NCBI RefSeq assembly: GCF_030915525.1
Contig: NZ_CP133269.1
Location: forward strand, 521,001 to 585,000
From: Neobacillus sp. PS2-9
GTDB lineage: Bacteria; Bacillota; Bacilli; Bacillales; Cytobacillaceae
Length of the DNA: 64,000 nt
Reading direction: 5' to 3'
The notes below the pieces were generated by a model. That model was not told where the DNA came from. It searched no databases and was given only the letters and a program-made list of their open reading frames with translations. Of this stretch, positions 25,907 through 41,537 are shown one piece after another (position 1 is the first letter of the stretch; the number at the start of each line of letters is the position of its first letter). The position numbers and the translations under genes are program-made.

Positions 25907-26023
25907 TCAATCACCCCACAACTTATTTTGTACTTTCATCCTACTCTCGTTTTGTTGATAAGGAAAATAATGATATATAATAGTTATCATAAGTAAATCT
26001 ATATACATGAAGTGGGGGTTACC

Positions 26024-26908: not shown

Positions 26909-26910
26909 TT

Positions 26911-27633: not shown

Positions 27634-27687
27634 CCAAACTAGCCGCGGGTGATTTAATATAATCATAGTGGTTGGGTCACTGAGCCA
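27634..27687 (+). promoter_or_regulatory. Promoter and GntR operator 1 before the slcC-like gene
   Basis: TTGACC (27634) with TTTAAT about 17 bp downstream looks like a sigma-A promoter. TGGTTGGGTCACTGAGCCA at 27669-27687 is one of four matching 19-bp palindromes, here just downstream of the -10 region, as expected for a repressor site. Confidence 0.7.
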
Positions 27688-27711
27688 TAAACAAGGGAGG
27701 GTAATCAATTT

Positions 27712-28662
27712 ATGAAAGCCTTGATAACAGAACTAATTTGGAATGAAGGAATTGAGGAACTAGTTCGCCAAGGGTTTGAGGTGCACTATGATGAGAGTCT
27801 ATGGAACAATCGCGCACAGCTACTCCAGATGGTCAAAGAGTACGACGCAATAATTGTTCGGAATCAAACCAAGGTGGATCAGGAATTACTACATGCCGGA
27901 AGCCGCTTGAAGGTAGTCGGCCGCCTGGGAGTGGGAATGGATAACATTGATATCCCAGCTGCGAAAGCAAGAGGGATTCAAGTGGTGTATGGGCGTCATG
28001 CGAATGCGACCTCTGTTGCGGAATATGTGCTGTCGGCCATGTTAATTGCGAACCGGCCGCTCTATCTAGCAGATGCAGATATTCGAACCGGAAATTGGAA
28101 CCGTAAACGGTTCACGGGCGGCGAAATCGCCAACAAAACACTTGGATTAATTGGACTAGGTGAAATCTCGCATCGTGTAGCGAAGCGGGCACTTGCTTTT
28201 GGCATGAAGGTCATTGGCTATGATCCATTTGTCACCGAGTACGACCACATTGTTTCCGAAACCGGAATCCAGCTTAAAAACTCCTTAGATGACGTATTAA
28301 CCATGTCCGATTTCATCTCCTTACATGTTCCTTTAACACCTCAGACGCACTATTTAATCTCCGAATTCGAATTGAGAAAGATGAAACCAACAGCGTATAT
28401 CATCAATACCTCTAGAGGAGGCATCATAAATGAACCGGCACTGGCGACTGCACTGAATAGCCAAACAATTGCCGGGGCCTTTTTAGATGTCCTTGAAGTA
28501 GAACCAATCTCACCATCTAATCAACTCTTATCCTGCGAAACTGCGACAATCACACCACATATTGCAGGACTCACCGACGAATCTCAAATCAGAACCTCGT
28601 TATTAGTTGCAAAGGAAGTAATAAAAGTAGTCAATGGGGAACGCTCCTTATGCACTGTCTAA
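27712..28662 (+). CDS. slcC: 2-hydroxyacid dehydrogenase, (S)-sulfolactate dehydrogenase-like
   Basis: 316 residues behind AAGGGAGG. Typical D-isomer-specific 2-hydroxyacid dehydrogenase: NAD loop GLIGLGEISHRVAKRA (about 144-159), substrate Arg in INTSRGGIINEPAL (about 234), Glu in DVLEVEPI and catalytic His in TPHIAG (about 285). SlcC of sulfolactate degraders is in this family and oxidises (S)-sulfolactate to sulfopyruvate. The name rests on the following suyAB-like and comC-like genes; phosphoglycerate dehydrogenase-like activity on another acid is the alternative. Confidence 0.7.
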   Translation: MKALITELIWNEGIEELVRQGFEVHYDESLWNNRAQLLQMVKEYDAIIVRNQTKVDQELLHAGSRLKVVGRLGVGMDNIDIPAAKARGIQVVYGRHANATSVAEYVLSAMLIANRPLYLADADIRTGNWNRKRFTGGEIANKTLGLIGLGEISHRVAKRALAFGMKVIGYDPFVTEYDHIVSETGIQLKNSLDDVLTMSDFISLHVPLTPQTHYLISEFELRKMKPTAYIINTSRGGIINEPALATALNSQTIAGAFLDVLEVEPISPSNQLLSCETATITPHIAGLTDESQIRTSLLVAKEVIKVVNGERSLCTV

Positions 28663-28693
28663 ACAAAATATTTAGAAAATTAAAATATTATTG

Positions 28694-28755
28694 TTGACTA
28701 TCCAGTTATTAGGTGTTTTAATAAGGTTATAGAAATTGGTTGGGTCACTCAACCA
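28694..28755 (+). promoter_or_regulatory. Promoter and GntR operator 2 before suyA
   Basis: TTGACT (about 28695) and TTTAAT some 17 bp on form a likely sigma-A promoter. TGGTTGGGTCACTCAACCA at 28737-28755 is the best copy of the palindromic operator. suyAB therefore has its own promoter, with the same control as the upstream gene. Confidence 0.7.
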
Positions 28756-28811
28756 CAATCACCAACCGCAACAACCAAAACCACAACCATAACCAAAAAG
28801 GAGGCTTTCAA

Positions 28812-29156
28812 ATGAGTATCAACAGTCAAGCAAATACTCTCACGGAACAACAGCCAGAGGCGGCTGGAAATGTAAGCACTCACAAATTTTTAATCCATCA
28901 TCGTGGCGATCATGTAGGAGTGGCTACTACTCCCATTCAAAAAGGAGAAAAAGTCATCGGCGTGTATATGGATGACAATTCCGATGTAACAGTAGTGTCA
29001 AAAGGGGATATTCCTCTAGGCCACAAAATCTCCTTAGTTAATTTAGAAAAAGGAGAACCAGTTTTAAAGTATGGAGTGCAAGTTGGGGTAACAACAGAAA
29101 AGTGGGAAATTGGCGATTACGTTCATACCCACAATATTAAAACGGCGAGGTGGTAG
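28812..29156 (+). CDS. suyA: Sulfolactate sulfo-lyase small subunit (SAF domain, SuyA-like)
   Basis: 114 residues from ATG 28812 behind AAAGGAGG. The body is a SAF domain: FLIHHRGDHVGVATTPIQKGEKV, GDIPLGHKISLVNLEKGEPVLKYG and IGDYVHTHNIKTARW, the last being the conserved VHTHN end. Altronate and galactarate dehydratases carry this domain fused or as a small subunit; SuyA is the separate small subunit of (R)-sulfolactate sulfo-lyase. SuyB follows after 3 bp. Confidence 0.75.
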   Translation: MSINSQANTLTEQQPEAAGNVSTHKFLIHHRGDHVGVATTPIQKGEKVIGVYMDDNSDVTVVSKGDIPLGHKISLVNLEKGEPVLKYGVQVGVTTEKWEIGDYVHTHNIKTARW

Positions 29157-29159
29157 GAG

Positions 29160-30317
29160 ATGGGACAACAGCTTTTTGGATATCGCAGAGAAAATGGTAA
29201 GGTTGGCATTCGGAATCACGTGATTATTTTACCGGTAGATGATATTTCTAACGCAGCTTGTGAAGCTGTTGCAAGACAAGTTCAAGGTACGTTAGCTCTT
29301 CCGCATGCGTACGGCAGACTACAGTATGGTCCAGACTTGGATTTGCATTTCAGAACGATGATTGGAACAGGTTCTAACCCGAACGTTGCAGCCGTCATCG
29401 TCATCGGTATTGAACAGAACTGGACGAAGAAAATCGCTGATGGGATTGCCGAAACTGGTAAACCAGTATCCTATTTTTCTATCGAAGGAAATGGTGATTT
29501 TGAAACGATCCGCGCAGCAAGCTGGAAGGCGAAGGAATATGTTCAATGGGCCACTGAACTTCAAAGGGAACCAATTGAATTAAAGGATTTAACCATCAGC
29601 ATTAAATGTGGTGAATCCGATACAACAACTGGCATGGGCTCGTGTCCAACTGTTTCTCAGGCAGTGGATCGTTTGGTTGATGCTGGTGCGACGGTATTCT
29701 TTGGGGAAACCTCTGAACTAACCGGCGGTGAGCATATTATCCGCGAGCGGATGGCTACACCGGAACTTCAAGAGAGATTCATGGCCATCTATGATGATTA
29801 TGTAGGTGAAATTGGATCTAAAGGTGTAGATTTATTAGGCTCACAGCCAACTCAAGGAAATATCGCCGGCGGCTTATCAACCATTGAAGAGAAAGCCTTG
29901 GGGAATATCGCAAAAACAGGTACGAAGGAAGTTGTAGGTGTCCTAGACCCTGCTGACAAACCAGAAAATGGCCCTGGTCTTTACTTCATGGATACCTCTT
30001 CTGCAGCAGCAGAATGTATCACCTTGATGGCTGCAGGTGGAGCGGTTCTTCACCTATTCCCTACTGGCCAAGGTAATATTATTGGTAACCCAATTGAACC
30101 GGTTGTGAAGATTACGGCTAATCCGATCACGGCTGCTACGATGAGTGAACACATTGACGTGGACGTGCAAGGCTTGCTATCACGTAACATCTCGCTGGAA
30201 CAAGCAGGGGATCAATTAATGGAAATGATTTGCCGTACAGTCAATGGCCGTCTTACTTGTGCAGAGGCATTAGGCCATCGTGAATTTGTCATGACAAAAC
30301 TATATCGCAGTGCTTAA
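29160..30317 (+). CDS. suyB: Sulfolactate sulfo-lyase large subunit (SuyB-like, UxaA family)
   Basis: 385 residues. UxaA-type C-terminal domain without the SAF part: [74 protein letters not shown] and [11 protein letters not shown]. The conserved cysteines in KCGESD and GSCP may help hold a metal. The size (~390) and split arrangement match SuyB, which with SuyA cleaves (R)-sulfolactate to pyruvate and sulfite in the cytoplasm. Altronate hydrolase is less likely because no hexuronate genes are near. Confidence 0.75.
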
Positions 30318-30324
30318 ACCGTTT

Positions 30325-30360
30325 CTCCCTACACATAGCTATGCGTAGGGAGTTCACTTT
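30325..30360 (+). terminator. Strong hairpin between suyB and the comC-like gene
   Basis: CTCCCTACACATAG (30325-30338) faces CTATGCGTAGGGAG (30339-30352), 13 of 14 pairs, followed by TTCACTTTTTT. It is probably a partial terminator that lowers expression of the next gene, or a stabilising 3' end for suyAB mRNA. Confidence 0.65.
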
Positions 30361-30383
30361 TTTATAAGAAGGAGTTTTTACGA

Positions 30384-31451
30384 ATGGGAACCTATCGTGA
30401 ATTGGATCTTAAAAGTTTTTGCGAAGACCTGCTAGTAAGCGTGGGAATGAACCAAGAGAATGCCTCTGTGGCTGCAGATTCATTAGTGAAAGCGAACCTT
30501 GAAGGTGTGGACAGCCACGGAATCAGCCGTCTTCCCATCTACGTCAAACGGTTTAAAGATCATAGGATTAATTTGAATCCTGAAATTAAAATAACGGAGC
30601 AGACATCATCTGTTTTACTGGTAGATGGAGATAATGGCCTTGGCCATGTGGTTAGTTATCAGGCCATTTTAAAAGGAACAGAAATGGCGAAACAAAGCGG
30701 GATTACCGCCATTGCGATAAAAAATAGCAATCATTTTGGTACCGCCTCTTATTTTTGTCAGCTGGCCTGTGAGCAAAACCTCGCCTGTATCGGTTTCACC
30801 AACTCGCCGCCAGGCATCGCACCATGGGGAGGGAAAAATGCCTTTTTTGGAACAAACCCGATTGCTTTTGGGTTTCCAACGGGCAACGATCAGCCCGTGA
30901 TCATTGACTTATCGACTAGCATTGTCGCTAGGGGGAAAATTATTTTAGCAGCCAAACAGGGACAGCCTATTCCAGATGGGTGGGCGATGGATGAAGACGG
31001 TCTTCCTACCAATGATGCGAAAGCGGCATTAAGGGGTTCTGTCCTGCCATTAGGCGGAGCGAAGGGATCCGCTTTAGCTTTAGCCGTAGAAATCTTAACG
31101 GGGATTCTGACTGGGGCTGCTTTTGGGCCTTATGTGAAAAATATTTATAATGAAGCGGAAACGGAACACGCCAATGTGGGGCATTTCTTCCTATTGCTGG
31201 ATATCGAAAAGTTTATGCACCTATCAACCTTTTTTGAGTCGCTCGAACATCTGTTAACAGAGATGAAGGAAGTTCCGAAAGCACCGGGCACGAATGAAAT
31301 CAGGTACCCAGGGGAAAGAAGAAAGAGGGATAGGGAGCTGCGCCAATTAGCAGGAATTGAATTGTCGTCCAGTGTAGAAGAGGAACTCATTAAGCTTGCG
31401 GAACAGTATTATGTCCCGTTTCCAGAGCCTCTATCATTGGAAAAAATATAA
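30384..31451 (+). CDS. comC: Malate/lactate/sulfolactate dehydrogenase family protein (ComC-like)
   Basis: 355 residues behind AGAAGGAG. It belongs to the Ldh2/YlbC/ComC oxidoreductase family: VDSHGISRLPIYV (about 42-54), NSNHFGTASYFCQLA with the catalytic His, NPIAFGFPTGNDQPVIIDLSTSIVARGKI and LGGAKGSALALAVEILTG. ComC reduces sulfopyruvate to (R)-sulfolactate, so with the SlcC-like enzyme it would invert (S)-sulfolactate for the R-specific SuyAB. Family members also act on malate, lactate or ureidoglycolate; the assignment depends on context. The symbol here means the sulfolactate enzyme and not the competence gene. Confidence 0.65.
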   Translation: MGTYRELDLKSFCEDLLVSVGMNQENASVAADSLVKANLEGVDSHGISRLPIYVKRFKDHRINLNPEIKITEQTSSVLLVDGDNGLGHVVSYQAILKGTEMAKQSGITAIAIKNSNHFGTASYFCQLACEQNLACIGFTNSPPGIAPWGGKNAFFGTNPIAFGFPTGNDQPVIIDLSTSIVARGKIILAAKQGQPIPDGWAMDEDGLPTNDAKAALRGSVLPLGGAKGSALALAVEILTGILTGAAFGPYVKNIYNEAETEHANVGHFFLLLDIEKFMHLSTFFESLEHLLTEMKEVPKAPGTNEIRYPGERRKRDRELRQLAGIELSSSVEEELIKLAEQYYVPFPEPLSLEKI

Positions 31452-31456
31452 AATAA

Positions 31457-31501
31457 AAAGGATAGATGAACCGGTAGAATCCGATTAACATCTATCCTTT
31501 G
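31457..31501 (+). terminator. Terminator after the comC-like gene
   Basis: AAAGGATAGATG pairs with CATCTATCCTTT across a 20-base loop. The T-run is short (TTTG), so efficiency is uncertain. Confidence 0.6.
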
Positions 31502-31608
31502 TTTACAAAAAGTGACCTCGTTTACTACAACAACCACGATTTTTGTTAGTGTACTAACGCTTCCCGTTATAATGTTTAAAAGAACCCCATTAACTTCTTT
31601 ACTGCTGC

Positions 31609-31971
31609 TCATTCACCGAGTAGCTGCTCTTCTTGTTCATCCCACATCGCAAACAAAGATTGTATCTCGGATCCTGTGTAAGCGCCAACCACCCTCACAT
31701 TCCTATGGACCAACTGCACTCCAACCATAACCGAGACAAATTCATCTTCTGCTCGCAGGCGGGCAACGGTTTCCTTGTCTCCGGTGATAAGGACGAAGCC
31801 ATTGAGATCACTGCCATGAGGCTCAAGAACAACTACCTCGAAACGATCGATTTTTCCTTCCTGTTGCAATCGAATACAGTATTCCATTGCATTATTGAGC
31901 GTGGCCTTTGCCGCCTTTTCACGCCCCGGTATGATTTCACCCCAACCAACGAGTAACGAACCTTTTGCCAT
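31609..31971 (-). CDS. Hypothetical protein, 120 residues
   Basis: Starts at ATG 31971 behind AAAGGGAGAG. The sequence (GSLLVGWGEIIPGREKAAKATLNNAMEYCIRLQQEGKIDRFEVVVLEPHG...) looks like a small alpha/beta, ferredoxin-like or dimeric barrel fold, with a charged C-terminal tail. No catalytic motif is seen. It is divergent from a PadR gene, with three operator-like repeats between them, so it is probably that regulator's target. Confidence 0.6.
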   Translation of the reverse strand: MAKGSLLVGWGEIIPGREKAAKATLNNAMEYCIRLQQEGKIDRFEVVVLEPHGSDLNGFVLITGDKETVARLRAEDEFVSVMVGVQLVHRNVRVVGAYTGSEIQSLFAMWDEQEEQLLGE

Positions 31972-31992
31972 ATCATTCTCTCCCTTTTATTT

Positions 31993-32133
31993 TATATGTT
32001 AAAATTAACCTATTACAAAATTAACATATTAGTTTTTATAAATCAACTAAAATATATGTTAAGTTTAACCTATAATTATCTCGGTTTACTTGATAAAAAT
32101 TACATGCGAATATATATTAAAATGAACCTATAA
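31993..32133. promoter_or_regulatory. Three TTAA-type direct repeats, probable PadR operators
   Basis: TATATGTTAAAATTAACCTA (from ~31993), ATATGTTAAGTTTAACCTAT (from ~32054) and TATATTAAAATGAACCTATA (from ~32111) are near-copies with a GTTAA-TTAAC inverted core. An inverted piece (AATTAACATATT) lies at about 32019. They fill the gap between the divergent 120-residue gene and padR. Confidence 0.65.
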
Positions 32134-32160
32134 AAACAACTATGATAAAGGAGTGGTTAG

Positions 32161-32724
32161 ATGAGTTCCTTTCGTTATGCCATGCTTACATTATTGGCGC
32201 GGGAGCCGCTAAGCGGATACGATATTAAGCAACAGATGAATAGTCGAATGGGGCCGTTCTGGAAAGCAGGAAGTAATCAAATATATCCTGAATTGGCAAA
32301 AATGGATGAAGAAGGACTAGTAGTACTCCATGAAGTAGAGCAAAATGATTACCGTCCTGCTCGAAAAGTATATAGAATTACAGAAAGTGGGCAGCAAGAA
32401 CTAATTCGTTGGACAACCGAGCCTACTGAACCAGAAATAATTCGGGATGAATTCCTTTTGAAGGCTTATAATTCTTGGCTTGTTGAATCTGAACAAATGA
32501 TACCCAGTTTGGAAGAGAAAAAGAAGGAACATGAGGAGAAGTTGACAATATATCTTGACAAGGTAAATGAACTTAAAGAAATGCTAAATCCATCAAATTC
32601 TAGGGATCCTATTCTGTCCAGCATGTCCGTCGTGGAATTCGGAATTGAATATGAAAAACTCTATATAAAGTGGTGTACAAATTTAATTGAAAGACTAAAG
32701 AATTCATTCAACGAATCATCATAA
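32161..32724 (+). CDS. PadR family transcriptional regulator
   Basis: 187 residues behind AAAGGAGTGG. PadR winged helix (about 1-85: YAMLTLLAREPLSGYDIKQQMNSRMGPFWKAGSNQIYPELAKMDEEGLV) and a helical C-terminal dimerisation part (Vir_C type, about 95-185). Usually a repressor released by small aromatic or lipophilic molecules. It probably represses itself and the divergent gene through the repeats upstream. Confidence 0.9.
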   Translation: MSSFRYAMLTLLAREPLSGYDIKQQMNSRMGPFWKAGSNQIYPELAKMDEEGLVVLHEVEQNDYRPARKVYRITESGQQELIRWTTEPTEPEIIRDEFLLKAYNSWLVESEQMIPSLEEKKKEHEEKLTIYLDKVNELKEMLNPSNSRDPILSSMSVVEFGIEYEKLYIKWCTNLIERLKNSFNESS

Positions 32725-32800
32725 GAGGATCTATAAGTAAAGAGTAATAAAGACCGCTACAGCCATCCGCGTTTTAAACGCAAGCCCGCGTCCTATTTAT

Positions 32801-32833
32801 TGGTCAACCAGATTTTTCTGGTTGACCATTTTT
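32801..32833 (+). terminator. Rho-independent terminator
   Basis: TGGTCAACCAGA (32801-32812) pairs perfectly with TCTGGTTGACCA (32817-32828), loop TTTT, then T5. It separates padR from the sigma factor locus. Confidence 0.85.
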
Positions 32834-32880
32834 GTGTTTTATCTTCAAGGAGCTAGATACATAGAATATATTTTTCCGCA

Positions 32881-32906
32881 TGTAACTTCTTATGGTTTAT
32901 AACGTT
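32881..32906 (+). promoter_or_regulatory. ECF-type promoter before the sigma gene
   Basis: TGTAAC (32881-32886), 16-bp spacer, CGTT (32903-32906), close to the TGAAAC-N16-CGT consensus of Bacillus ECF promoters. This suggests autoregulation. A similar pair lies at 35466-35492. Confidence 0.55.
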
Positions 32907-32948
32907 TTGATTAGTATAGACGTCTTGAAGGAAAAAGGAGCTTAATAA

Positions 32949-33455
32949 ATGGATTGGGAGAAGATATGGATTGATTATTGGAAAGAAGTATATGTATTTG
33001 TATTTTTACGGGTTCGTCATAAGCAGGAAGCAGAAGATATCACGCAGGAAACCTTTATCAAAGCTATCCGGGCAGAGGATAGGTATTTAGAAGATAATGT
33101 GAATATATTAGCCCTTTTAAAAACCATTGCTAGAAACCTGATCATTGACATATGGAGAAAAAAGCAAAAAACGCAAGAACCCTTAAGTCTTGAACCCGAA
33201 CTGTTCTTAACCGATATAGGAAGTGATTTAGAAAAAATCATCGAACAAAAGGAACAAGTGGAACATGCCCTTTACTTATTAAATGAGGATCAGAGAAAAG
33301 TAATTGTATTACGGCTTTTGCAGGGACTGTCGATCAAAGAAACAGCGGAACTGCTGGGGAAGACGGAAGCCTTCGTAAAAGTCATACAATTTCGCGCGAT
33401 AAAGAAGGTTCAGGACCTAATGAAAAAGGAATTTTTGGAGGAGGCTTTGCGATGA
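32949..33455 (+). CDS. ECF-type RNA polymerase sigma factor
   Basis: 168 residues behind AAAAAGGAG. Region 2 (about 8-75) has QEAEDITQETFIKAIRAEDRY and LLKTIARNLIIDIWRKKQK; region 4 (about 100-160) has LNEDQRKVIVLRLLQGLSIKETAELLGKTEAFVKVIQFRAIKKVQ. It overlaps the next gene (ATGA), which encodes a membrane protein with a basic cytoplasmic start, the usual anti-sigma position. The locus ends with an OatA-like acyltransferase, as in the B. subtilis sigV region. Confidence 0.9.
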   Translation: MDWEKIWIDYWKEVYVFVFLRVRHKQEAEDITQETFIKAIRAEDRYLEDNVNILALLKTIARNLIIDIWRKKQKTQEPLSLEPELFLTDIGSDLEKIIEQKEQVEHALYLLNEDQRKVIVLRLLQGLSIKETAELLGKTEAFVKVIQFRAIKKVQDLMKKEFLEEALR

Positions 33456-34774
33456 GTTTATCAAACGAGCAAGATAGACTTTCCCAATATATTGATAGAT
33501 TGAATCAAACCGGAAGAATAAACATAGACAAAGCGGATGATCAAGCATGGACTGAAATGCTCGATACCGTTCATCTGATTAAACTTTCCAACATAATAGA
33601 CATGCCGACACCTGATTTTGAAGAAAAAGGAATCCAGGTAATTAAAAAAGAGGTTGAGAAAACACGGAAAAAAGTGGTTGAGATAAAGACCCTCAAAAAA
33701 CGCACATGGAAAAAACATTTTTTGCCGGTAGTTGCTGCATCTTTAGTTGCTTTATCCGTTTGTCTTCCGACTTTTTTTCCTAATCAAAAAGCAAAGGCAG
33801 AACAGATTCGTGTGGTAAAAGAGCAACAGTTAGTTTCATTGGGTGTTTCAAAGGTTAATTTCCCAACTATGCTGTCAGATGGAAAATCGGTTGGCTTTGA
33901 AAAAGATGAAAAAATTTTTATTTGGAACCAAAGCAATCAATCGTTTAAACAATTTCCTTTGAATAGTTTTCAATATATGAGAAATCCAGCATGGTCGCCG
34001 GACGAGAAGACCATAGCATTTTCCGGTTATCAAACCAAGAATGCTGGGATTTGGCTAATGGAACAAGATGGATCGCACGTACGTCAACTAGCAGCACCGG
34101 GTTCCCCTGATGATTTTTATGACCATCCAACCTGGTCACCGGATGGGAAGAAGCTAGCCTTTGCTAAACAAAGCTATCAATTGAATGATTCAGATGGGGT
34201 AACTCAAACAAGCGAGGAAATATGGCTAATGGATATCGGGGCTGGCAAGTTAAGAAAAATCACTGATGGTTCTGAACCTAGCTGGTCACCAGATGGCAAG
34301 AATATCGCTTACACTAAGACCCGAATAAAAGGGGAATCGATTCAAAAAGAAGTGTGGATAATCAAGACGGATGGTTCCAATCCGAAAAAATTAACCGATG
34401 GAATGGAGCCAAAGTGGTCACCAAATGGTCAATTTCTCACTTTTGCTAGGAATACAACCACTAATGAAAAAGTGGGTACGGAAAAAGCTCAAATTGTTGT
34501 TACGTATCGTGAGATCTTGGCTTTACATGTGGAAAGCAAAAGCGAATCACAATTAACAAAGTCAAAATTAAATGAACGAGAGTTAAACAACCTCATTTCC
34601 TCATCCAAATCAGCGACAAACAATTTGCCAGTGAATGTTGTCATGAGCGGTGAATATAGTGACTGGCAGCCAAGCTGGTCAAAAGACGGGAAGAGCATCG
34701 TGTTTGTTAGGGATACCAATGAGGAAAAAGGCAATCACTTTAACTTAATGAAAATTGACTTAAAATATGAATAA
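33452..34774 (+). CDS. Probable anti-sigma factor with TolB/WD40-type beta-propeller
   Basis: 440 residues, start overlapping the sigma stop. A cytoplasmic part (about 1-85, amphipathic, with EMLDTVHLIKLS), one membrane helix (about 91-108), then an outside domain with repeated blades: AWSPDEKTIAFSG, TWSPDGKKLAFAK, SWSPDGKNIAYTK, KWSPNGQFLTFAR and SWSKDGKSIVFVR. These are PD40/TolB-like propeller repeats. By position it should bind the sigma factor, and the propeller could sense a cell-wall ligand or protein. The N-terminal part shows no clear zinc-binding anti-sigma motif, so the role is inferred. Confidence 0.7.
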   Translation: MSLSNEQDRLSQYIDRLNQTGRINIDKADDQAWTEMLDTVHLIKLSNIIDMPTPDFEEKGIQVIKKEVEKTRKKVVEIKTLKKRTWKKHFLPVVAASLVALSVCLPTFFPNQKAKAEQIRVVKEQQLVSLGVSKVNFPTMLSDGKSVGFEKDEKIFIWNQSNQSFKQFPLNSFQYMRNPAWSPDEKTIAFSGYQTKNAGIWLMEQDGSHVRQLAAPGSPDDFYDHPTWSPDGKKLAFAKQSYQLNDSDGVTQTSEEIWLMDIGAGKLRKITDGSEPSWSPDGKNIAYTKTRIKGESIQKEVWIIKTDGSNPKKLTDGMEPKWSPNGQFLTFARNTTTNEKVGTEKAQIVVTYREILALHVESKSESQLTKSKLNERELNNLISSSKSATNNLPVNVVMSGEYSDWQPSWSKDGKSIVFVRDTNEEKGNHFNLMKIDLKYE

Positions 34775-34796
34775 TCCCAAAAAGGCAGGAAAAGCA

Positions 34797-35345
34797 ATGA
34801 AGATTGGAATTATGATTAGTTCGCTGTTACTCATAATGACTGTAATCTCTGGGTGTGGAAATGGATCCTCGCCTAACAAGAAGGTCGGTCTAGAAAAAAA
34901 TACTGTCAACGAAAACGAGAAGATCATGAATCATACAAATGAAAGTACAGCAAAAGAAACACAGGAAGTTCTTCTGGATCATTTGAAAATAAAAGTAAGC
35001 AGCCAATGGAGTGTCAATAAAGGGATAGATTCTGCAGCTTTTTCAATCAAAGGTAAATCGGTAGGTATCATTGAGGGGCTGGCCTACGCTGATTCATTAG
35101 AGGCGGTATTACCCAATCAATCCATTGTAACTGACAAACAGAAACTAACACAGCTACCATTTGATGCGTATCAAGTAACTACCAGCAGTGACACGGTGAG
35201 GTCGAAAACAAAAACGGAGACCCATATATACATGTTCATTGAGCCTAAAAAGGCCGTTTACGATTTGCACTTTGATGCTAATTTGGTGGATGAAACAACT
35301 ATTTTACAAATTGTTCGATCTGCTGAGATTGTCCATACTGAGTGA
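34797..35345 (+). CDS. Lipoprotein of the sigma locus
   Basis: 182 residues from ATG 34797 (AGGAAA upstream; the longer start at 34767 lacks a ribosome site and adds ten residues before the signal). Lipid signal peptide ending at VISGCGNG, then a polar linker and a globular part (about 60-182). The latter has VLLDHLKIKVSSQWSVNK and SVGIIEGLAY, reminiscent of small outside domains that accompany anti-sigma factors. Third gene of the sigma operon, overlapping or abutting the propeller gene. Function unknown. Confidence 0.7.
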   Translation: MKIGIMISSLLLIMTVISGCGNGSSPNKKVGLEKNTVNENEKIMNHTNESTAKETQEVLLDHLKIKVSSQWSVNKGIDSAAFSIKGKSVGIIEGLAYADSLEAVLPNQSIVTDKQKLTQLPFDAYQVTTSSDTVRSKTKTETHIYMFIEPKKAVYDLHFDANLVDETTILQIVRSAEIVHTE

Positions 35346-35373
35346 CATTCATACAGAAATTCAAGACAAGAAC

Positions 35374-35408
35374 AAAAGCTACCAGAGAATGGTGGCTTTT
35401 TCTTTTTT
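35374..35408 (+). terminator. Rho-independent terminator
   Basis: AAAAGCTACCA pairs with TGGTGGCTTTT (one G-T pair), then TCTTTTTT. It ends the sigma operon. Confidence 0.8.
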
Positions 35409-35465
35409 GGAGAGGGAGCAAAACAATGACGCTCAAGTAGAAAAATGATATTTTTTAGAAAATAT

Positions 35466-35492
35466 TGTAACTTTTTGTAAGAACTGCTCGTT
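35466..35492 (+). promoter_or_regulatory. ECF-type promoter before the acyltransferase gene
   Basis: TGTAAC (35466-35471), 17-bp spacer, CGTT (35489-35492) continuing TTTT. It has the same elements as the promoter at 32881, suggesting that the neighbouring ECF sigma factor reads both. Confidence 0.55.
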
Positions 35493-35554
35493 TTTTCTAA
35501 TGGGATGAATCGATCCCCTCGATGGAATGAGATTTTATTAAGGAGGAGTTTATT

Positions 35555-37399
35555 TTGCCTATTCCTATAAAAGAAAACAAGCGGTACATTGCTGGGATTG
35601 ATGGATTAAGGGCTATAGCTGTCCTTTCCGTCATAGCCTATCATCTAAATGTAAGTTGGGCTCCAGGTGGGTTATTAGGAGTGGTGATATTCTTTGTTTT
35701 ATCAGGTTATTTAATTACAGATCTTATCGTTATGGAGTGGGAGGAAAATGGTTCTATTAATCTAAAAAAATTCTGGCATAGAAGAATACGAAGGTTATTT
35801 CCTGCACTAATTGTGATGGTGATTGTAGTCATGGCGTGGATTACTCTATTCAATTGTGCCATCATCCCAAATATAAGAGGTGATTTACTAGCTTCTCTTT
35901 TTTATATAAGCAATTGGTGGTTTATTTTTCATAAAATCTCTTATTTTTCTAGTTTCGGAACGCCATCTCCCTTTACACATTTATGGTCTTTAGCAGTGGA
36001 AGAACAATTTTATATCCTTTGGCCATTGCTATTAATTTTGGGCTTAAAGGTTTTTAGACGAAGAACATCGATATTGTGGGTCACACTGATCATCGCAATA
36101 ATCTCTATATCTCTTATGGGATTGAATTATAAAGTAGGGACAGACCCAAGTAGAATTTATTATGGAACAGATACAAGGCTTTTCTCGCTTCTATTTGGAG
36201 CATTTCTTGCATTGATTTGGCCTAGTCGAAAGCTCTCCAAACGTGCGCCAAGATTTGCCATCATTACTTTAGATGTAGCAGGTAGTTTAAGTTTTGTCAT
36301 ATTAATAGTAATGATTTGGAAAACCAACCAGTTTGAAGCGTTTCTATATAGAGGCGGAATGGTCCTAACGTCATTAGCGGCATTAATCTTGGTTGCTACA
36401 TTGGCACACCCAGGCAGTCATCTTAGTAAACTACTTGGATTCAAGCCGCTTCGATGGATTGGTGTTCGTTCCTACTCCATGTATCTTTGGCACTATCCCA
36501 TTATTGTCTTAAGCAATCCTGTAGCTAATAATGAAGAATTAAATATTCTTCGTATGACATTACAGGTTTTCGGAATTTTTTTACTATCTGCACTGTCATG
36601 GCGTTATATAGAAAATCCCATAAGACGTGGAGCTATTGGTAAATTTCTAAACAATCGTGAACCTACAAAACCATTGTTTAAACAGGTTTCTCTTCTTCAA
36701 AAGCTTCTATTGGTTTTGTCCCTTTTAACCATAGGAATTTCCTTTTGGGGAATGTCGTCGTCTGCTTCCGAAAGCAAGAATCACAGGACAAATGATATTC
36801 AGTTAATAACAACCGAACGAAAAAAATGGCAGGATAAAGACAATGAGCAAAAGAACAATAGTTCTCCTAGTAAGGAAGCGAATAATGGTCAAGTGGAGGA
36901 AAAAAAGTCGGGTCCTGTGTCAGGAGTAGATGAAACAAGCATTACAGCAATTGGAGATTCCGTTATGCTTATGGTGGCTCCTTATTTAAAAAAAGAGTTT
37001 CCGGAGATTGTCATAGATGCAAAAGTTGGGCGTCAAATGAGAGATGCTTCTACTGTCATACAACGCTTAAAATCAGAAGGTAAATTAGGTGATAAAGTGA
37101 TCATAGAATTAGGAACAAATGGTCCAATTGATAAAAATCAGCTTGTTTCTTTAATAGACTCTCTGGGTAATAGAAAGAAAATTATTTTAGTGAACTCACG
37201 GGTACCCCGTCCTTGGGAAAGTAAGGTGAATTCAATTCTAAGAGAGGTTACGGCATCGTCCTCTAGAATTTCTTTGGTGAATTGGTATGATGCGAGTATG
37301 GGAAAAGATTCATACTTTTATTCAGATGGCGTACATCCAAATATAAAAGGCTCTCAGATTTATGCCTCACTTATAGCAAAAGCAGCAATAAAAAAATGA
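35555..37399 (+). CDS. OatA/YrhL-like membrane acyltransferase with SGNH domain
   Basis: 614 residues from TTG 35555 behind AAGGAGGAG. The acyltransferase_3 domain spans about 10-375 with ~10-11 membrane segments and GIDGLRAIAVLSVIAYHL (catalytic His), FFVLSGYLIT, FWHRRIRRLFPAL and HLWSLAVEEQFYILWP. After a polar linker comes an outside SGNH esterase-like domain (about 460-614) with AIGDSVML, GTNGPI and DGVHPN. This is the layout of peptidoglycan O-acetyltransferases, which give lysozyme resistance. Teichoic-acid acylation is the alternative. It is probably controlled by the nearby ECF sigma factor. Confidence 0.85.
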   Translation: MPIPIKENKRYIAGIDGLRAIAVLSVIAYHLNVSWAPGGLLGVVIFFVLSGYLITDLIVMEWEENGSINLKKFWHRRIRRLFPALIVMVIVVMAWITLFNCAIIPNIRGDLLASLFYISNWWFIFHKISYFSSFGTPSPFTHLWSLAVEEQFYILWPLLLILGLKVFRRRTSILWVTLIIAIISISLMGLNYKVGTDPSRIYYGTDTRLFSLLFGAFLALIWPSRKLSKRAPRFAIITLDVAGSLSFVILIVMIWKTNQFEAFLYRGGMVLTSLAALILVATLAHPGSHLSKLLGFKPLRWIGVRSYSMYLWHYPIIVLSNPVANNEELNILRMTLQVFGIFLLSALSWRYIENPIRRGAIGKFLNNREPTKPLFKQVSLLQKLLLVLSLLTIGISFWGMSSSASESKNHRTNDIQLITTERKKWQDKDNEQKNNSSPSKEANNGQVEEKKSGPVSGVDETSITAIGDSVMLMVAPYLKKEFPEIVIDAKVGRQMRDASTVIQRLKSEGKLGDKVIIELGTNGPIDKNQLVSLIDSLGNRKKIILVNSRVPRPWESKVNSILREVTASSSRISLVNWYDASMGKDSYFYSDGVHPNIKGSQIYASLIAKAAIKK

Positions 37400-37421
37400 C
37401 GTATGCTAATTCATACGTCAT
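37390..37421 (-). terminator. Terminator for the GntR gene (minus strand)
   Basis: ATGACGTATG/CATACGTCAT stem; read on the minus strand it is followed by TTTTTTT. It also overlaps the stop of the acyltransferase gene and may serve both directions. Confidence 0.75.
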
Positions 37422-37446
37422 TTCTAGTGTCGTCTATTATTTTTCC

Positions 37447-38145
37447 TTATGCCTCAGTTACCGCATTTTCCGTAATCGAACGTTCCACGCTTTCTAGATG
37501 TTCCTTCATACATTGCTGTGCTAACTCTGAATTTTTCTGTTTGATTGCTTGTAAAATTCTCGTGTGTTCTTGAACGGATTGTAAGGCACGACCAGGAATT
37601 TGCATGGTTTTACTTCGTGACTCAGACAATAAATCAATTAGATAATTCATAATCCCGGTTAAAACGGTATTCTTTGAGTTATTGGCTATTGTTATATGAA
37701 ATTTATGGTCCAATTCAGCTAATCTCGTATAATCTATTTTTCCTTTGACGATTTCATTTGCTTCATTCACAATATGCTCTAACTCAGTGAATTGGTCGTT
37801 AGTCGAGTTTTCAATTGCCCACTTGACGGTCCATTCTTCGAGGATCTTTCGGACAGAGAAAAAGTCTTTAATCTGTTCAGTTGAGACAAAAAGTGCTTCC
37901 GTCACCTTTTGAATTTGATGTTCGGGTGAGGCAACAAATACGCCTGTTCCATGCTTCACTTGTAGGTACCCATAGGCTTCGAGAATTTTGTAGGCTTCCC
38001 TCACCGTATTTCTACTGACGGAAAGCTCGATCCCCATCTCTCTTTCTCCTGGTATTCGTTCCCCGACTTGGTATTCTCCAGCTTGAATTTTTCTCTTAAT
38101 ACTGTCTGCTACCTGTTCAGAAATTCCTTTTCTATTAAATTCCAC
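37447..38145 (-). CDS. GntR family regulator, FadR subfamily
   Basis: 232 residues from GTG 38145, which follows GGAGGG by 12 bases; an upstream GTG at 38181 would add 12 residues that span this ribosome site. Winged helix (about 8-75: EQVADSIKRKIQAGEYQVGERIPGEREMGIELSVSRNTVREAYKIL) and an all-helical FCD domain (about 85-220) with LDHKFHITIANNS, which carries metal-ligand His. FCD proteins bind small carboxylates. It is divergent from the TRAP operon, and a TGGT-N11-ACCA palindrome recurs before both TRAP and sulfolactate genes. Confidence 0.85.
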   Translation of the reverse strand: MEFNRKGISEQVADSIKRKIQAGEYQVGERIPGEREMGIELSVSRNTVREAYKILEAYGYLQVKHGTGVFVASPEHQIQKVTEALFVSTEQIKDFFSVRKILEEWTVKWAIENSTNDQFTELEHIVNEANEIVKGKIDYTRLAELDHKFHITIANNSKNTVLTGIMNYLIDLLSESRSKTMQIPGRALQSVQEHTRILQAIKQKNSELAQQCMKEHLESVERSITENAVTEA

Positions 38146-38286
38146 GTTATCACTGCTCCCTCCGTTAAAATCGAAGCGCACTTTATGTTTTTAATAATCT
38201 AGTACCTTTATACTAGTTGCTCTTAATTTTATTTAAGCACTCAGTAAATAACTTGTAAATGGTTTCCATCAATTTTTGGATTTTAT

Positions 38287-38305
38287 TGGTTAGGTGACCC
38301 AACCA
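38287..38305. promoter_or_regulatory. GntR operator 3
   Basis: TGGTTAGGTGACCCAACCA, a 19-bp palindrome in the 381-bp gap between gntR and the TRAP genes, nearer gntR. Suits self-control of the regulator. Confidence 0.7.
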
Positions 38306-38380
38306 GTACCAGTGTATTTTCATTAAACCATTTTTATTATTACTAAGCAATAAATATTTTTAATAGGAAAAATAATATTT

Positions 38381-38433
38381 GATTTTTTAGAAAATTGAAA
38401 TATAATTAATTTAGTGGTTGGGTGACTGAACCA
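38381..38433 (+). promoter_or_regulatory. Promoter and GntR operator 4 before the TRAP operon
   Basis: TTGATT (about 38380) and TATAAT (about 38401) about 16 bp apart form a sigma-A promoter. TGGTTGGGTGACTGAACCA at 38415-38433 lies over the expected transcription start. Confidence 0.7.
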
Positions 38434-38526
38434 TATTAGGAGGGAGGAGTACATACTATTACTAGCTAACCAGGTTGATTTTTTAAAAATTTGAAAGGGC
38501 TTACAAATTGGTAGGGAGGTTAAGAA

Positions 38527-39534
38527 ATGAAAAAAGCTTCTGTCTTCGTTCTCATAGTGTTAACCTGTTTATTCATGATTACCGGCTGTTCCAGTACCAG
38601 TACGGCAACAAGTAAAGGCACAGATGCAGAGTATGTTTTAAGGCTCGGACATTTGCAGACAGAAACTCATCCTTATCATAAGGGAGCTTTAAAGTTTAAA
38701 GAGCTAGTTGAGAAAGAATCAAAAGGGAGAATTAGAATTGATATTTTTCCTAGCAGCCAGTTAGGAAACGGGAGGGACCAGATTGAGGGAGCCCAAATCG
38801 GATCGATTCACTTCCACATAGGTTCCGTTGCACCAGTGACTAATTTTGCCCCGAAGTTTAATGTACTCAATCTTCCTTATTTATTTGAAAGTCGTGAGCA
38901 TGCCTTTAGGGTTCTCGATGGAGAAATCGGTAAGGAACTAGGAGAAGACCTGGCGAATCGTGGGTTAATGAATTTAGGTTTTATGGAAAACGGCTGGAGA
39001 CATATGACCAATAATGTCAAGCCAATTAAAACTGCTAAAGATGCAGCAAGTATGAAAATTAGAGTCCAGGAATCGCCACCCTATATTTCGTTTGTGAAGG
39101 CACTGAAATCAACTCCTGTTCCGGTACCGTTTGGGGAACTTTACACCGCGCTCGAGCAGCATGTCGTAGATGGTCAGGAAAATCCGCTTGCGCAGATTTA
39201 TTTAAACAAATTTAATGAAGTTCAAAAGTATTTGACGTTAACCGCTCATAATTATGATGCCGCTGTTTTTATTATGAGTAAAACCACCTATGACACGCTG
39301 CCAAAGGATTTGCAAAAGGTGATCACCAAAGCATCCAAAGAGGCAATTCAATATGAGAGAAAAGTAGCTTTAGAGGATGAGAAACAACTGCTTGAGGACC
39401 TGAGAAAAACAGATATTCAAATCGAGGAAAACCCTGACTTAGACTCCTTTAGAGAAGCGGTTAAACCAGTATACAAAGAGTTTGAAGGCTCCATTGGAAA
39501 AGATCTGCTGGAAAAAATAGAAAGCTTAAAATAA
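38527..39534 (+). CDS. TRAP transporter solute-binding lipoprotein (DctP family)
   Basis: 335 residues behind GGGAGG. Lipoprotein signal ending ITGCSS (Cys ~21), then a DctP fold: LRLGHLQTETHPYHKGALKFKELVEKES, GQEN-type substrate loop as DGQENPLAQIYLNKF and the carboxylate-binding Arg region KIRVQESPPYISFVKAL. It catches an organic acid outside the membrane and passes it to DctQM. The shared operator with the sulfolactate genes makes sulfolactate or a similar C3 sulfonate the leading candidate. Confidence 0.85.
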   Translation: MKKASVFVLIVLTCLFMITGCSSTSTATSKGTDAEYVLRLGHLQTETHPYHKGALKFKELVEKESKGRIRIDIFPSSQLGNGRDQIEGAQIGSIHFHIGSVAPVTNFAPKFNVLNLPYLFESREHAFRVLDGEIGKELGEDLANRGLMNLGFMENGWRHMTNNVKPIKTAKDAASMKIRVQESPPYISFVKALKSTPVPVPFGELYTALEQHVVDGQENPLAQIYLNKFNEVQKYLTLTAHNYDAAVFIMSKTTYDTLPKDLQKVITKASKEAIQYERKVALEDEKQLLEDLRKTDIQIEENPDLDSFREAVKPVYKEFEGSIGKDLLEKIESLK

Positions 39535-39553
39535 TCATGTGGAGGTGCATTCA

Positions 39554-40132
39554 ATGAAAGGGTTTATGACGGAACTGAGTAAAAAAGTGGATAAAGCCAG
39601 CAAATTTCTCTTAATCTTCTTTTTCGTTATTGCTTTCGTGGCTACGGTGTATCAAGTGTTTTCCCGGTTCGTTTTACAGAGTTCCATCGTGCAAAAGACG
39701 CTTCCAATGGTTGATTTTTCCGTATTTAATTTAAGCTGGGCGGAAGAGCTCATTCGTTACATGTTTGTCTGGATTGTTTTTTTAGGGATCGGAATTGTTT
39801 ATAAAAGCAAGGAACATGCACAGGTGGAAATTTTACTTCATTATTTGCCTGAAAAATTGAAAGGTAAGCTGCAAGTCCTCATTGAAGTCATCAACTCCGC
39901 TGTCTTTCTATTTTTAATCGTATATGGCTTTAGCATCTTAAAATTTACTAGTCAACAAATATCCCCTTCAATGGGACTGAATATGACGCTGATTTATGGC
40001 TCTGTCCTCGTCTGTTCGCTCATCTGTCTTCTTCATTCTTTTGTTAACATACTTAATTTGGTAGTTGGAAAAGAGGAAAAGGCTCGGATTGTTCAGGTAG
40101 AAGTGGCAAATGAGAATCCCCATATAGGATAG
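39554..40132 (+). CDS. TRAP transporter small membrane subunit (DctQ family)
   Basis: 192 residues from ATG 39554 behind GTGGAGG; an in-frame GTG at 39539 overlaps that site. Four membrane segments (about 16-36, 60-80, 105-127, 140-163) with the DctQ mark SWAEELIRYMFVWIVFLGIGIVYKSKEHAQVEIL. It forms the membrane complex with DctM. It sits 19 bp after dctP and 16 bp before dctM. Confidence 0.85.
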   Translation: MKGFMTELSKKVDKASKFLLIFFFVIAFVATVYQVFSRFVLQSSIVQKTLPMVDFSVFNLSWAEELIRYMFVWIVFLGIGIVYKSKEHAQVEILLHYLPEKLKGKLQVLIEVINSAVFLFLIVYGFSILKFTSQQISPSMGLNMTLIYGSVLVCSLICLLHSFVNILNLVVGKEEKARIVQVEVANENPHIG

Positions 40133-40148
40133 AAAAGGAGGAAGTTGA

Positions 40149-41435
40149 ATGACAGTAGCAGTTATTGTCCTGGTTGTCCTGTTTGTACTGATGTTTCTGG
40201 GTGTTCCTATTGCTATCTCGTTAATATTAGCATCCATTTCCGGTTTTTTATCTAGTATCTACTATGTTCCATTAGAAGTCGTTCCTCAAAGATTATTAAC
40301 CTCTGTAGATTCGTTTCCACTTCTAGCTATTCCCTTTTTCATGCTGACGGGTGAATTTATGATGTCTGGCAGTATGGGACAACGGATTGCGGGATTTGCT
40401 TTTGCATCGGTCGGCTGGCTGCGTGCCGGTTTAGCACAGGTTTCGACGTTAACAAGTATGTTCTTCGCAGGAATTTCGGGATCAGGTGCAGCAGATACGG
40501 CGGCTGTCGGTAAAATGATGATCCCAATGATGGAGAAAAAAGGCTACGATAAAGGATTTGCCGCTGCTACTGTAGCGAGTGCAGGAACCATCGCAGTCGT
40601 TATTCCGCCATCCATTCCTATGATTGTATACGGAGTAACGGCAGGCGTTTCGATTGGGGATTTGTTCACAGCCGGGATTGTCCCTGGAATCTTAATTGGT
40701 TTGTCGATTATGATGCTAAACTATTGGCTGACAAAAAAGAATAACTATTCTCAAGAGAACACGAAGTTTGAATTCTCTTCTTTCAAAAAGACTTTCTTTG
40801 AAGGAATATTGGCCTTAATCCTTCCATTAATTATCATCTTTGGAATAAGGGGAGGTATTTTTACTCCGACGGAAGCTGGTGCGATTGCTGCTGCCTATGC
40901 TTTTATTATCAATAAATTTGTCTATAAGGATATGGATTGGAAGGATGTACCGGAGGCTTTTATTAAAGCAGGTAAAATGACAGGGATGGTTGTCTTTATT
41001 ATTGCAGCTGCGAATCTATTTGGCTGGCTGCTAACCGCTGAACAAATTCCGCAGCTACTTGTTAATCTAGTAACTGGATTCTCTGATAATCGTTATCTCA
41101 TCCTGCTTATGTTCACGGTTATTTTCTTTATCGCAGGCTGCTTCTTGAACGCATCTGCGGCGATTACAATCTTAACACCATTATTGCTGCCGATTGCTAT
41201 AGCAGCAGGAATTGACCCGGTGTTCTTTGGACTCATTATGGTCGTTAACCTATCAATCGGACTCATCACACCGCCAGTAGGATTAGACCTCTTTGTTGTA
41301 AAAGGGATAGCCGACATTTCCTACGATAAACTGGTCCGATCGATTGCACCCTTCATTGTCGTCATGGTCGTTGACCTACTAATCATCACCTTCTTCCCGG
41401 CATTATCCATGTTTTGGGTGACCATGGGTAAATAA
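40149..41435 (+). CDS. TRAP transporter large permease (DctM family)
   Basis: 428 residues behind AAAAGGAGG. Twelve or so hydrophobic segments with DctM marks: FPLLAIPFFMLTGEFM, GISGSGAADTAAVGKMMIPMMEKKGYDKGFAAATVASAGTIAVVIPPSIPMIVYG, FTPTEAGAIAAAYA and LSIGLITPPVGLDLFV. It is the sodium-coupled channel of the TRAP system. The operon ends in a 44-bp palindrome. Confidence 0.9.
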   Translation: MTVAVIVLVVLFVLMFLGVPIAISLILASISGFLSSIYYVPLEVVPQRLLTSVDSFPLLAIPFFMLTGEFMMSGSMGQRIAGFAFASVGWLRAGLAQVSTLTSMFFAGISGSGAADTAAVGKMMIPMMEKKGYDKGFAAATVASAGTIAVVIPPSIPMIVYGVTAGVSIGDLFTAGIVPGILIGLSIMMLNYWLTKKNNYSQENTKFEFSSFKKTFFEGILALILPLIIIFGIRGGIFTPTEAGAIAAAYAFIINKFVYKDMDWKDVPEAFIKAGKMTGMVVFIIAAANLFGWLLTAEQIPQLLVNLVTGFSDNRYLILLMFTVIFFIAGCFLNASAAITILTPLLLPIAIAAGIDPVFFGLIMVVNLSIGLITPPVGLDLFVVKGIADISYDKLVRSIAPFIVVMVVDLLIITFFPALSMFWVTMGK

Positions 41436-41441
41436 AAATTT

Positions 41442-41485
41442 GGGGACAGTCCCCCGCCGCTTTAGAGCAGTGGGGGACTGTCCCC
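41442..41485. repeat. 44-bp palindrome, probable terminator of the TRAP operon
   Basis: GGGGACAGTCCCCCGCCGC left arm, GGGGGACTGTCCCC right arm, then GTTTT. Confidence 0.85.
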
Positions 41486-41537
41486 GTTTTATGATATTAT
41501 AGATATATGAAATTGAAATGTAACGAGGTTGAGGAAC

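Follow-up and report, generated by a model that had tools for sequence, protein, structure and literature searches.

Gene content of the locus

We analyzed a 64-kb stretch of DNA (positions 521001-585000, hereafter the window) from the single 5.19-Mb contig that constitutes the whole genome of Neobacillus sp. PS2-9. The window encodes homologs of enzymes of sulfolactate degradation, namely an SlcC-like dehydrogenase, the two subunits of a SuyAB-type sulfo-lyase, and a ComC-like dehydrogenase, together with a GntR-type regulator and a tripartite ATP-independent periplasmic (TRAP) transporter, DctPQM, some 6 kb further on (Table 1). All of these open reading frames (ORFs) are intact and lie where a preliminary description of this DNA had placed them, which confirms the observation behind its reading of a split sulfolactate regulon under one GntR regulator. 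As a whole, that interpretation is partly supported by the analyses reported here.

Table 1. Features of the candidate sulfolactate regulon and its surroundings. Positions are those of the window, except in the last row, which refers to loci of related genomes (L and G numbers designate loci and genomes throughout).
Feature	Position	Strand	Basis or remark
Operator O1, TGGTTGGGTCACTGAGCCA	27669..27687	+	24 bp upstream of slcC start
slcC-like D-2-hydroxyacid dehydrogenase, proposed (S)-sulfolactate dehydrogenase	27712..28662	+	2-Hacid_dh; SlcC tree grouping
Operator O2, TGGTTGGGTCACTCAACCA	28737..28755	+	56 bp upstream of suyA start
suyA, predicted (R)-sulfolactate sulfo-lyase small subunit	28812..29156	+	37-48% identity to SuyA of Cupriavidus, Paracoccus and Rhodococcus
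suyB, predicted (R)-sulfolactate sulfo-lyase large subunit	29160..30317	+	PF04295 and PF20629 (GD_AH_second and GD_AH_C) families; tree
comC-like Ldh2-family dehydrogenase, proposed to convert sulfopyruvate to (R)-sulfolactate	30384..31451	+	PF02615 (Ldh_2)
gntR, FadR-type regulator	37447..38145	-	GntR and FCD; start used in L124 corresponds to the GTG at 38145; listed ORF extends to a longer start at 38181
Operator O3	38287..38305	-	gntR side of the gntR-dctP interval
Promoter-like TTGATT-16-TATAAT	38379..38406	+	ahead of dctP; promoter scan, weak alone
Operator O4	38415..38433	+	ahead of dctP
dctP, TRAP solute-binding protein	38527..39534	+	TIGR00787, PF03480; lipobox-like ITGC by eye
dctQ, TRAP small permease	39554..40132	+	PF04290; alternative GTG start 39539
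dctM, TRAP large permease	40149..41435	+	TIGR00786
PF03601 (YeiH-type) putative sulfite/sulfate exporter	24839..25906	-	adjoins the cluster, without operator
LysR-family regulator	26012..26908	+	divergent from exporter gene
Succinate dehydrogenase-like/fumarase-like cassette of related loci (suyB-plus orientation)	L129 2300-8879; L132 2822-9389; L142 4056-9322		

A shared operator marks both gene groups

The GntR protein matched both PF00392 (GntR) and PF07729 (FCD) above their cut-offs and is thus of the FadR type. A 19-bp palindrome is present in four copies, O1 to O4, distributed over the two gene groups. When up to three mismatches were allowed, the pattern TGGTTGGGTGACTCAACCA was found at four places in the window (6 rows) compared to a mean of 0.03 in shuffled sequences, a test that is partly circular because the pattern was derived from the same sites. 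Exact matches to GGTTRGGTNACYNANCC in the 5.19-Mb genome were confined to these four places; at one mismatch three more places were identified, and a backward control gave seven matches at up to one mismatch.

An independent test was provided by a search of 193 genomes of the family for the strict operator GGTTGGGTNACYNAACC with no mismatches. Matches were identified in 23 genomes (48 rows), all of them among the 24 genomes that encode a SuyB with at least 86% identity to that of the window, and in none of the 169 others (Fisher p = 6.6e-29, with genomes treated as independent). The lone genome with such a SuyB and without an exact operator (G062) has one-mismatch sites. The 48 rows sit at suy clusters, in one case (G152) ahead of a displaced dctP, and a backward control over the same 193 genomes gave four matches, in four genomes outside the 24.

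Three genomes with a less similar SuyB (G150, G140, and G192; 70-73%) had no exact operator genome-wide and none at up to three mismatches in the stretches scanned. The GntR gene of G150 and G140 is of another type (35-43% identity) and none is in view for G192. Because these genomes differ in both GntR and operator, the operator goes with the GntR type found in the window. Among the 18 genomes in which the cluster includes TRAP genes (hereafter the TRAP form, the window included), the operator lies ahead of slcC in all 18 at up to two mismatches, and sites are also present in the gntR-dctP interval. The claim that one GntR operator is shared by both gene groups is supported by its sole four exact sites in the genome and by its distribution among genomes (23/24 versus 0/169); from this co-occurrence, GntR would bind the palindrome. 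O4 begins 8 bp past the promoter-like TATAAT ahead of dctP, a position that would fit a repressor role of GntR. The promoter scan near dctP found two candidates compared to a shuffled mean of 1.9, i.e., no better than shuffles, and gave no matches at O1 or O2.

SuyB groups with sulfo-lyases and not with sugar-acid dehydratases

Comparison of SuyB with 72,556 plasmid records yielded 313 matching records, 13 at 60-80% identity and 300 below 60%. Among the matches listed, the former fall at 63-70%, include proteins of Rhodococcus, Paracoccus, and Cupriavidus, and are followed by a next match at 39%. A similar gap was observed in the 193 family genomes, where homologs with at least 70% identity were identified at 28 places in 27 genomes and the next match was at 43%. 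The closest named matches were from a Bacillus sp. metagenome-assembled genome (99%) and Neobacillus niacini (98%). In a tree built with 40 of the 115 rows collected, the window protein grouped with SuyB from Cupriavidus and Paracoccus, reference rows that are close kin of assayed enzymes from different strains. A branch of 3.94 (support 100/100) separates this group from split UxaA-like proteins (L118-L120) and from E. coli UxaA and GarD, the E. coli rows being long branches. The preliminary description had named a placement of SuyB among altronate or galactarate dehydratases as the finding that would speak against it; SuyB did not group there, and on the basis of the tree we reject the altronate/galactarate dehydratase reading. 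Both the tree and the step from 63-70% to 39% identity argue for the SuyAB type.

A separate small-subunit gene, suyA, lies directly ahead of suyB, as expected for SuyAB. SuyA had no Pfam match at E <= 0.001, the SAF domain included, and a genome-wide SAF search matched another gene only; the NCBIfam galactarate dehydratase model aligned with its N-terminal part only, at 27.7 bits and far under the cut-off. We predict that suyA-suyB encode an (R)-sulfolactate sulfo-lyase type of enzyme (EC 4.4.1.24) that would release sulfite and pyruvate in an Fe(II)-dependent reaction. Some Bacillaceae copies are already annotated as ‘(2R)-sulfolactate sulfo-lyase subunit beta’ (for example, Neobacillus niacini P0016 and Bacillus sp. 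OV194 P0108), and most of the names given by NCBI in the list are ‘UxaA family hydrolase’. In G165, G166, and G167, UxaA-like matches (30%) fall within open frames of 978-991 codons, compared to approximately 500 amino acids for the usual fused dehydratase.

The placement of SuyB bears directly on whether the locus might instead be a sugar-acid cluster (altronate-, galactarate-, or erythronate-like), in which the SuyAB-like pair would be a two-part dehydratase, the SlcC and ComC homologs would oxidize or reduce hydroxyacids, and the transporter would import the acid. TRAP systems often transport sugar acids, the DctP sequence is compatible with such a ligand, and SuyB falls within the galactarate/altronate dehydratase superfamily. 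Nevertheless, within that superfamily it sides with the Cupriavidus and Paracoccus proteins across the long branch described above, genes for an aldolase or kinase are absent from the two operator-marked groups, and sulfite/sulfate-type exporter genes recur across the loci. We therefore consider a sugar-acid cluster very unlikely.

The two dehydrogenases

In phylogenetic reconstruction, the SlcC homolog of the window and those of 27 chosen suy loci (28 rows from Bacillota, Pseudomonadota, Actinomycetota, Chloroflexota, and Acidobacteriota) were separated from five paralogues of its own genome. Support for this branch is moderate (88/90), and the rows are SlcC homologs defined by their suy loci, none being an assayed SlcC sequence. 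This is consistent with assignment to the SlcC type. The ComC-like protein matched PF02615 at 405 bits (cut-off 38.8), and a genome-wide search at E <= 1e-6 gave no other match. The best of the five NCBIfam models that it matched was that of L-sulfolactate dehydrogenase (NF040650), and its best PDB relatives were 1v9n (malate dehydrogenase) and 2x06 (L-sulfolactate dehydrogenase). Loci that combine homologs of slcC, suyAB, and comC with a gntR gene also recur in Actinomycetota, Chloroflexota, and Acidobacteriota.

Transport and export

The genes dctP, dctQ, and dctM are consecutive, in the order of TRAP transporters, and their products matched the corresponding models (DctP, TIGR00787, 281.8 bits, cut-off 175; DctM, TIGR00786, 449.4 bits, cut-off 268; DctQ, PF04290). 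Of the 24 genomes of the family that encode this type of SuyB, 18 have a TRAP importer within the operator-marked cluster, which supports this part of the preliminary description.

The exporter gene that adjoins the cluster of the window matched PF03601 (264.9 bits, cut-off 24.5) and remained under the cut-off for YeiH (TIGR00698; 164 versus 232.6 bits). Because it lacks an operator, we count it as outside the GntR regulon. Such a gene, with the LysR gene, lies left of slcC in five of the 18 TRAP-form genomes (the window, L123, L124, L125, and L127). A PF03601-type exporter gene is present between gntR and dctP in nine of the 18, with the operator ahead of it in all nine at up to two mismatches; these assignments are based on Pfam for the copy in L138 and on 64-69% similarity for the others, with partial or broken matches in L128 and L136.

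A proposed pathway for sulfolactate

Given this gene content, it is likely that the two operator-marked groups form a catabolic regulon for import of sulfolactate and its cleavage to pyruvate and sulfite. The proposed steps draw on the SlcC/ComC/SuyAB pathway as given in the accessible text of PMC12421959, PMC9594981, and PMC6278857. DctPQM would import external 3-sulfolactate. SlcC would oxidize (S)-sulfolactate to sulfopyruvate, which the ComC-like enzyme would reduce to (R)-sulfolactate, the two acting as a racemase pair, and SuyAB would then cleave (R)-sulfolactate to sulfite and to pyruvate for growth. Sulfite may leave the cell via a YeiH-type exporter, encoded by the flanking copy in the window or by the in-regulon copy in half of the TRAP-form genomes. 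GntR would act at the palindromes ahead of slcC, suyA, gntR, and dctP and probably represses these genes until sulfolactate or its product is present.

Several observations weigh against this pathway. The best PDB relatives of DctP are mostly described as ‘DctP subunit’ only and include one isethionate binder and many sialic-acid binders; with such mixed ligands, DctP does not fix the substrate. The preliminary description's ComC/Ldh2 assignment holds at the level of the Ldh_2 family and of the best NCBIfam model, yet the protein scores 291.2 bits against an equivalog cut-off of 500 for NF040650, and we therefore refer to it as ComC-like only. SlcC and ComC share 37-44% and 31-42% identity, respectively, with copies from proteobacterial, actinobacterial, and acidobacterial suy loci. 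Finally, no exporter match was detected in the 20 kb viewed for four of the 18 TRAP-form loci (L126, L133, L139, and L140).

Bacillus spores hold sulfolactate, and the cluster might thus serve to recycle the spore sulfolactate of the cell itself rather than a nutrient. The genome has no match to ComA (PF02679), which takes part in the synthesis of this sulfolactate, and across the family ComA shows no association with SuyB (8/27 versus 65/166 genomes, p = 0.40). A TRAP importer, moreover, suggests uptake. We reject this source as extremely improbable. The genome has two matches to PF04029 (the ComB-type family), which alone says little. Scavenging of sulfolactate from the spores of other species is possible.

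Organization of the locus among relatives

The 24 genomes with this SuyB type comprise the 18 of the TRAP form and six with loci that lack TRAP genes. In 16 of the 18, comC, gntR, and dctPQM form one block; in G154, which is near-identical, only ~40 bp separate comC from gntR. In the window, the ~6-kb gap between these genes (31452-37446) encodes a small ORF, a PadR regulator, an extracytoplasmic function sigma factor, a PD40 protein, a second small ORF (lipoprotein-like by eye), and an acyltransferase, whereas a gap of ~10 kb in G152 carries sugar ATP-binding cassette transporter-like and other genes (by eye). The description of the regulon as split is therefore true of the window and does not extend to the TRAP form at large, where the window is counted among the 18. 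We reject the split as a meaningful design; it is an insertion in the lineage of the window and incidental to the system.

Further variation was observed. In L136, the slcC and comC matches are each in two pieces. L138 (G089) has two suyAB pairs in its cluster (6335-12684), the second directly ahead of dctPQM. A third Bacillaceae form combines suyAB-slcC-comC-gntR with genes for a tripartite tricarboxylate transporter (TTT) and has no operator (L146 12531-15576, L147 6608-9642, and L019 13915-16952); in L147, slcC is incomplete and comC was not found.

Between the LysR gene and slcC of the window is a 52-bp tandem repeat (8.3 copies, 27065-27496), and a similar repetitive ORF occupies the matching position in L124 (by eye). 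Repeats of the GGGGACAGTCCCC / GGGGGACTGTCCCC type lie near both ends of the region, at 26907-26945 and 41440-41485 (by eye). Downstream, 41529-46684 encodes a LacI-type regulator (by eye), a phosphotransferase system EIIBC component, a GH32 hydrolase, and a sugar-kinase-like protein (by eye), and ORFs resembling these come after dctM in G152.

A second form with a succinate dehydrogenase-like and fumarase-like cassette

The six loci with the operator and without TRAP genes (L129, L132, and L142-L145) belong to four genera. They carry an operon, hereafter the cassette, for an SdhB-like Fe-S protein, a cytochrome b-like protein, an SdhA-like flavoprotein, and the alpha and beta parts of a class-I fumarase (families assigned with Pfam and NCBIfam on the L142 cassette and the L132 symporter). 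At up to two mismatches, the operator is directly ahead of the cassette in all six loci, with a second copy ahead of suyA in all six. A ComC-like gene is likewise present in each, as are TauE and/or PF03601-type exporter genes, inside the cassette or a few kb off; L129, L132, and L142 also have a gene for a DctA-like symporter close by. Cassette-type fumarase (at least 83% identity; next best 49%) was identified in seven of the 193 family genomes, all of which encode a SuyB with at least 86% identity (p = 2e-7, genomes treated as independent). In G115, a cassette accompanied by TRAP and GntR genes of its own (L164 1845-12080, contig 125) is on a different contig from the TRAP-type suy cluster.

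An intact slcC is in the locus in two of the six cassette loci compared to all 18 TRAP-form loci (L136 counted). We considered whether loss of slcC distinguishes the cassette form and dropped this argument, since full copies lie elsewhere in G062 and G052 and slcC is missing genome-wide in only two of the six genomes. In G062, L129 retains only short pieces of slcC (9219-9646), and the full-length copy elsewhere has 65% identity.

Cassettes in the same locus as suyAB were identified in at least eight of the 80 loci retained from the matches listed, from Bacillota, Pseudomonadota, Chloroflexota, and Acidobacteriota; seven of these are outside the family (Chloroflexota, Acidobacteriota, and Alphaproteobacteria) and one is within it (L013). 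Plasmid pMRAD01 of Methylobacterium radiotolerans has the cassette, TauE, suyAB, DctA, an NAD(P)-dependent oxidoreductase, and a ComC-like gene in one stretch. In two haloarchaea (L175 3479-10447 and L183 2422-10419), flavoprotein and Fe-S genes lie beside a two-part UxaA-family pair and TauE, with a gene annotated as argininosuccinate lyase in the place of fumarase; one haloarchaeal large UxaA-family protein is only 35.5% identical to the SuyB of the window.

Flavoproteins from 25 loci of bacteria and haloarchaea fell into a single clade, separate from SdhA, FrdA, and NadB (100/100); the exact placement of this clade is unsure because of long branches among the outside rows. All four SdhA active-site motifs (HPTG, RD-type, H..GG, and ANRLGGN) were matched in 16 of the 25, and the other nine each miss one. 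Flavoprotein matches with at least 46% identity numbered 18 among those listed from 310 matching plasmid records. Of the 12 viewed, two (L181 and L182) are unannotated, and a sulfite/sulfate exporter is annotated nearby in eight of the other ten; tblastn found none in L181 or L182 (8/12 overall).

These observations lead us to propose, tentatively, that the GntR/operator system also exists in another form, which is apparently undescribed and may mineralize a C4 sulfodicarboxylate, most simply sulfosuccinate. The SDH-like flavoprotein/Fe-S enzyme would oxidize sulfosuccinate to sulfofumarate, and the class-I fumarase-like enzyme would hydrate this to 3-sulfomalate. The ComC-like enzyme, a relative of malate dehydrogenase, could then, with beta-decarboxylation, yield sulfopyruvate and subsequently (R)-sulfolactate for SuyAB. 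Alternatively, SuyAB might cleave 3-sulfomalate directly to oxaloacetate and sulfite; L018 and L032, where no slcC or comC match was detected in the stretch examined, are compatible with this ending. A DctA-like, TRAP, or TTT carrier may serve for uptake, and TauE/YeiH for sulfite release. A C4 sulfodicarboxylate would fit better than a C3 sulfonate because, besides dicarboxylate carriers and sulfite exporters, the gene set provides for oxidation, hydration, and then cleavage by a sulfo-lyase.

Other findings argue against a C4 sulfonate. The SDH/fumarase genes could serve another dicarboxylate. HpsN, an entry enzyme for 2,3-dihydroxypropanesulfonate (DHPS), is also encoded in several alphaproteobacterial cassette loci, and suyAB may therefore serve DHPS there. 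Only three of the 12 plasmid loci viewed (L172, L175, and L183) include a two-part UxaA/SuyB-type pair in the stretch, so that the desulfonating step would be elsewhere or different in the others; in Paracoccus versutus, suyAB lies ~21 kb away on the same plasmid. A sulfite exporter was not seen in two of the ten annotated plasmid loci.

The cassette form raises the question of whether this strain imports a different sulfonate of three or four carbons (DHPS, cysteate, 3-sulfomalate, or sulfosuccinate), with sulfolactate as an inner intermediate only. The six relatives, with the same operator before an SDH-like and fumarase-like operon beside suyAB, would agree with this, as would the presence of HpsN for DHPS in many other suy loci. 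However, HpsN, a transaminase, and the cassette are all absent from the two operator-marked groups of the window (HpsN and transaminases were not searched genome-wide), and the genome has neither a cassette-type flavoprotein (best matches 34 and 31%) nor a fifth exact operator. Import of another sulfonate is thus unlikely in this strain.

Relation to known systems and implications

The SlcC/ComC/SuyAB pathway for sulfolactate is in print (PMC12421959, on P. wurundjeri, and the review PMC9594981, both in their accessible text). The accessible part of PMC6278857 shows cleavage of sulfolactate by SuyAB of Desulfovibrio DF1 and reports suyB in 12 Firmicutes genomes, those named being sulfate/sulfite reducers. 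Of the novelty suggested for a Bacillaceae version, presence of SuyB in Firmicutes was thus already published, and the sulfo-lyase name is already in use for some Bacillaceae copies; the TRAP/GntR form is a variant of the known pathway. We found no published account of that form in a literature search made mostly without subscription papers, in which ‘sulfolactate’, ‘TRAP transporter’, and ‘GntR’ together led, in the text accessible, to a Ruegeria genome annotation only.

Four systems offer the closest comparisons. The Chromohalobacter/Paracoccus pathway has the same four enzymes, with two dehydrogenases as racemase followed by the sulfo-lyase, whereas the window adds a TRAP importer, the transporter of Chromohalobacter salexigens being of another type, as well as a FadR-type GntR that has a 19-bp operator to itself, and carries no sulfosugar genes in its two groups. 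The pathway of C. salexigens was reportedly described by Denger and Cook in 2010. The HpsNO-SuyAB system of Cupriavidus pinatubonensis (HN-2 plasmid, L002), the enzyme of which is said to have been studied in strain JMP134, shares SuyAB (SuyB 64% identity) but has HpsN entry for DHPS, major facilitator superfamily (MFS) and TTT-type transport genes, and a LacI-type regulator, none of which is in the two groups of the window. In the Rhodococcus koreensis plasmid locus L004, a divergent FadR/GntR gene precedes suyAB, with hydroxyacid dehydrogenase and Ldh family genes further on; it differs in an MFS gene in the place of TRAP and in an aldehyde dehydrogenase gene. The Bacillaceae TTT-type loci (L146, L147, and L019) are from the same bacterial families and share suyAB-slcC-comC with a GntR gene, yet their GntR is another (35-43%), the operator was not found, SuyB is 71-72% identical, and TRAP is replaced by tricarboxylate-type transporter genes, an assignment made from similarity and by eye.

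For the cassette form, the same search found no literature that joins ‘sulfosuccinate’ with ‘sulfolactate’ or treats sulfosuccinate breakdown. A 1994 report is said to describe bacterial sulphosuccinate desulfonation by another route. Sulfosuccinate esters are a mass-used group of surfactants. If correct, the SDH/fumarase form would reveal the genes of a route for a related C4 sulfonate, together with a clear enzyme set.

According to the accessible text of PMC9594981, aerobic Bacilli that degrade sulfoquinovose form sulfolactate as an end product. The operator makes the regulon easy to spot in genomes, and, if the proposed pathway is correct, Bacillaceae that import and desulfonate sulfolactate would represent the consuming side of a sulfoquinovose-derived exchange.

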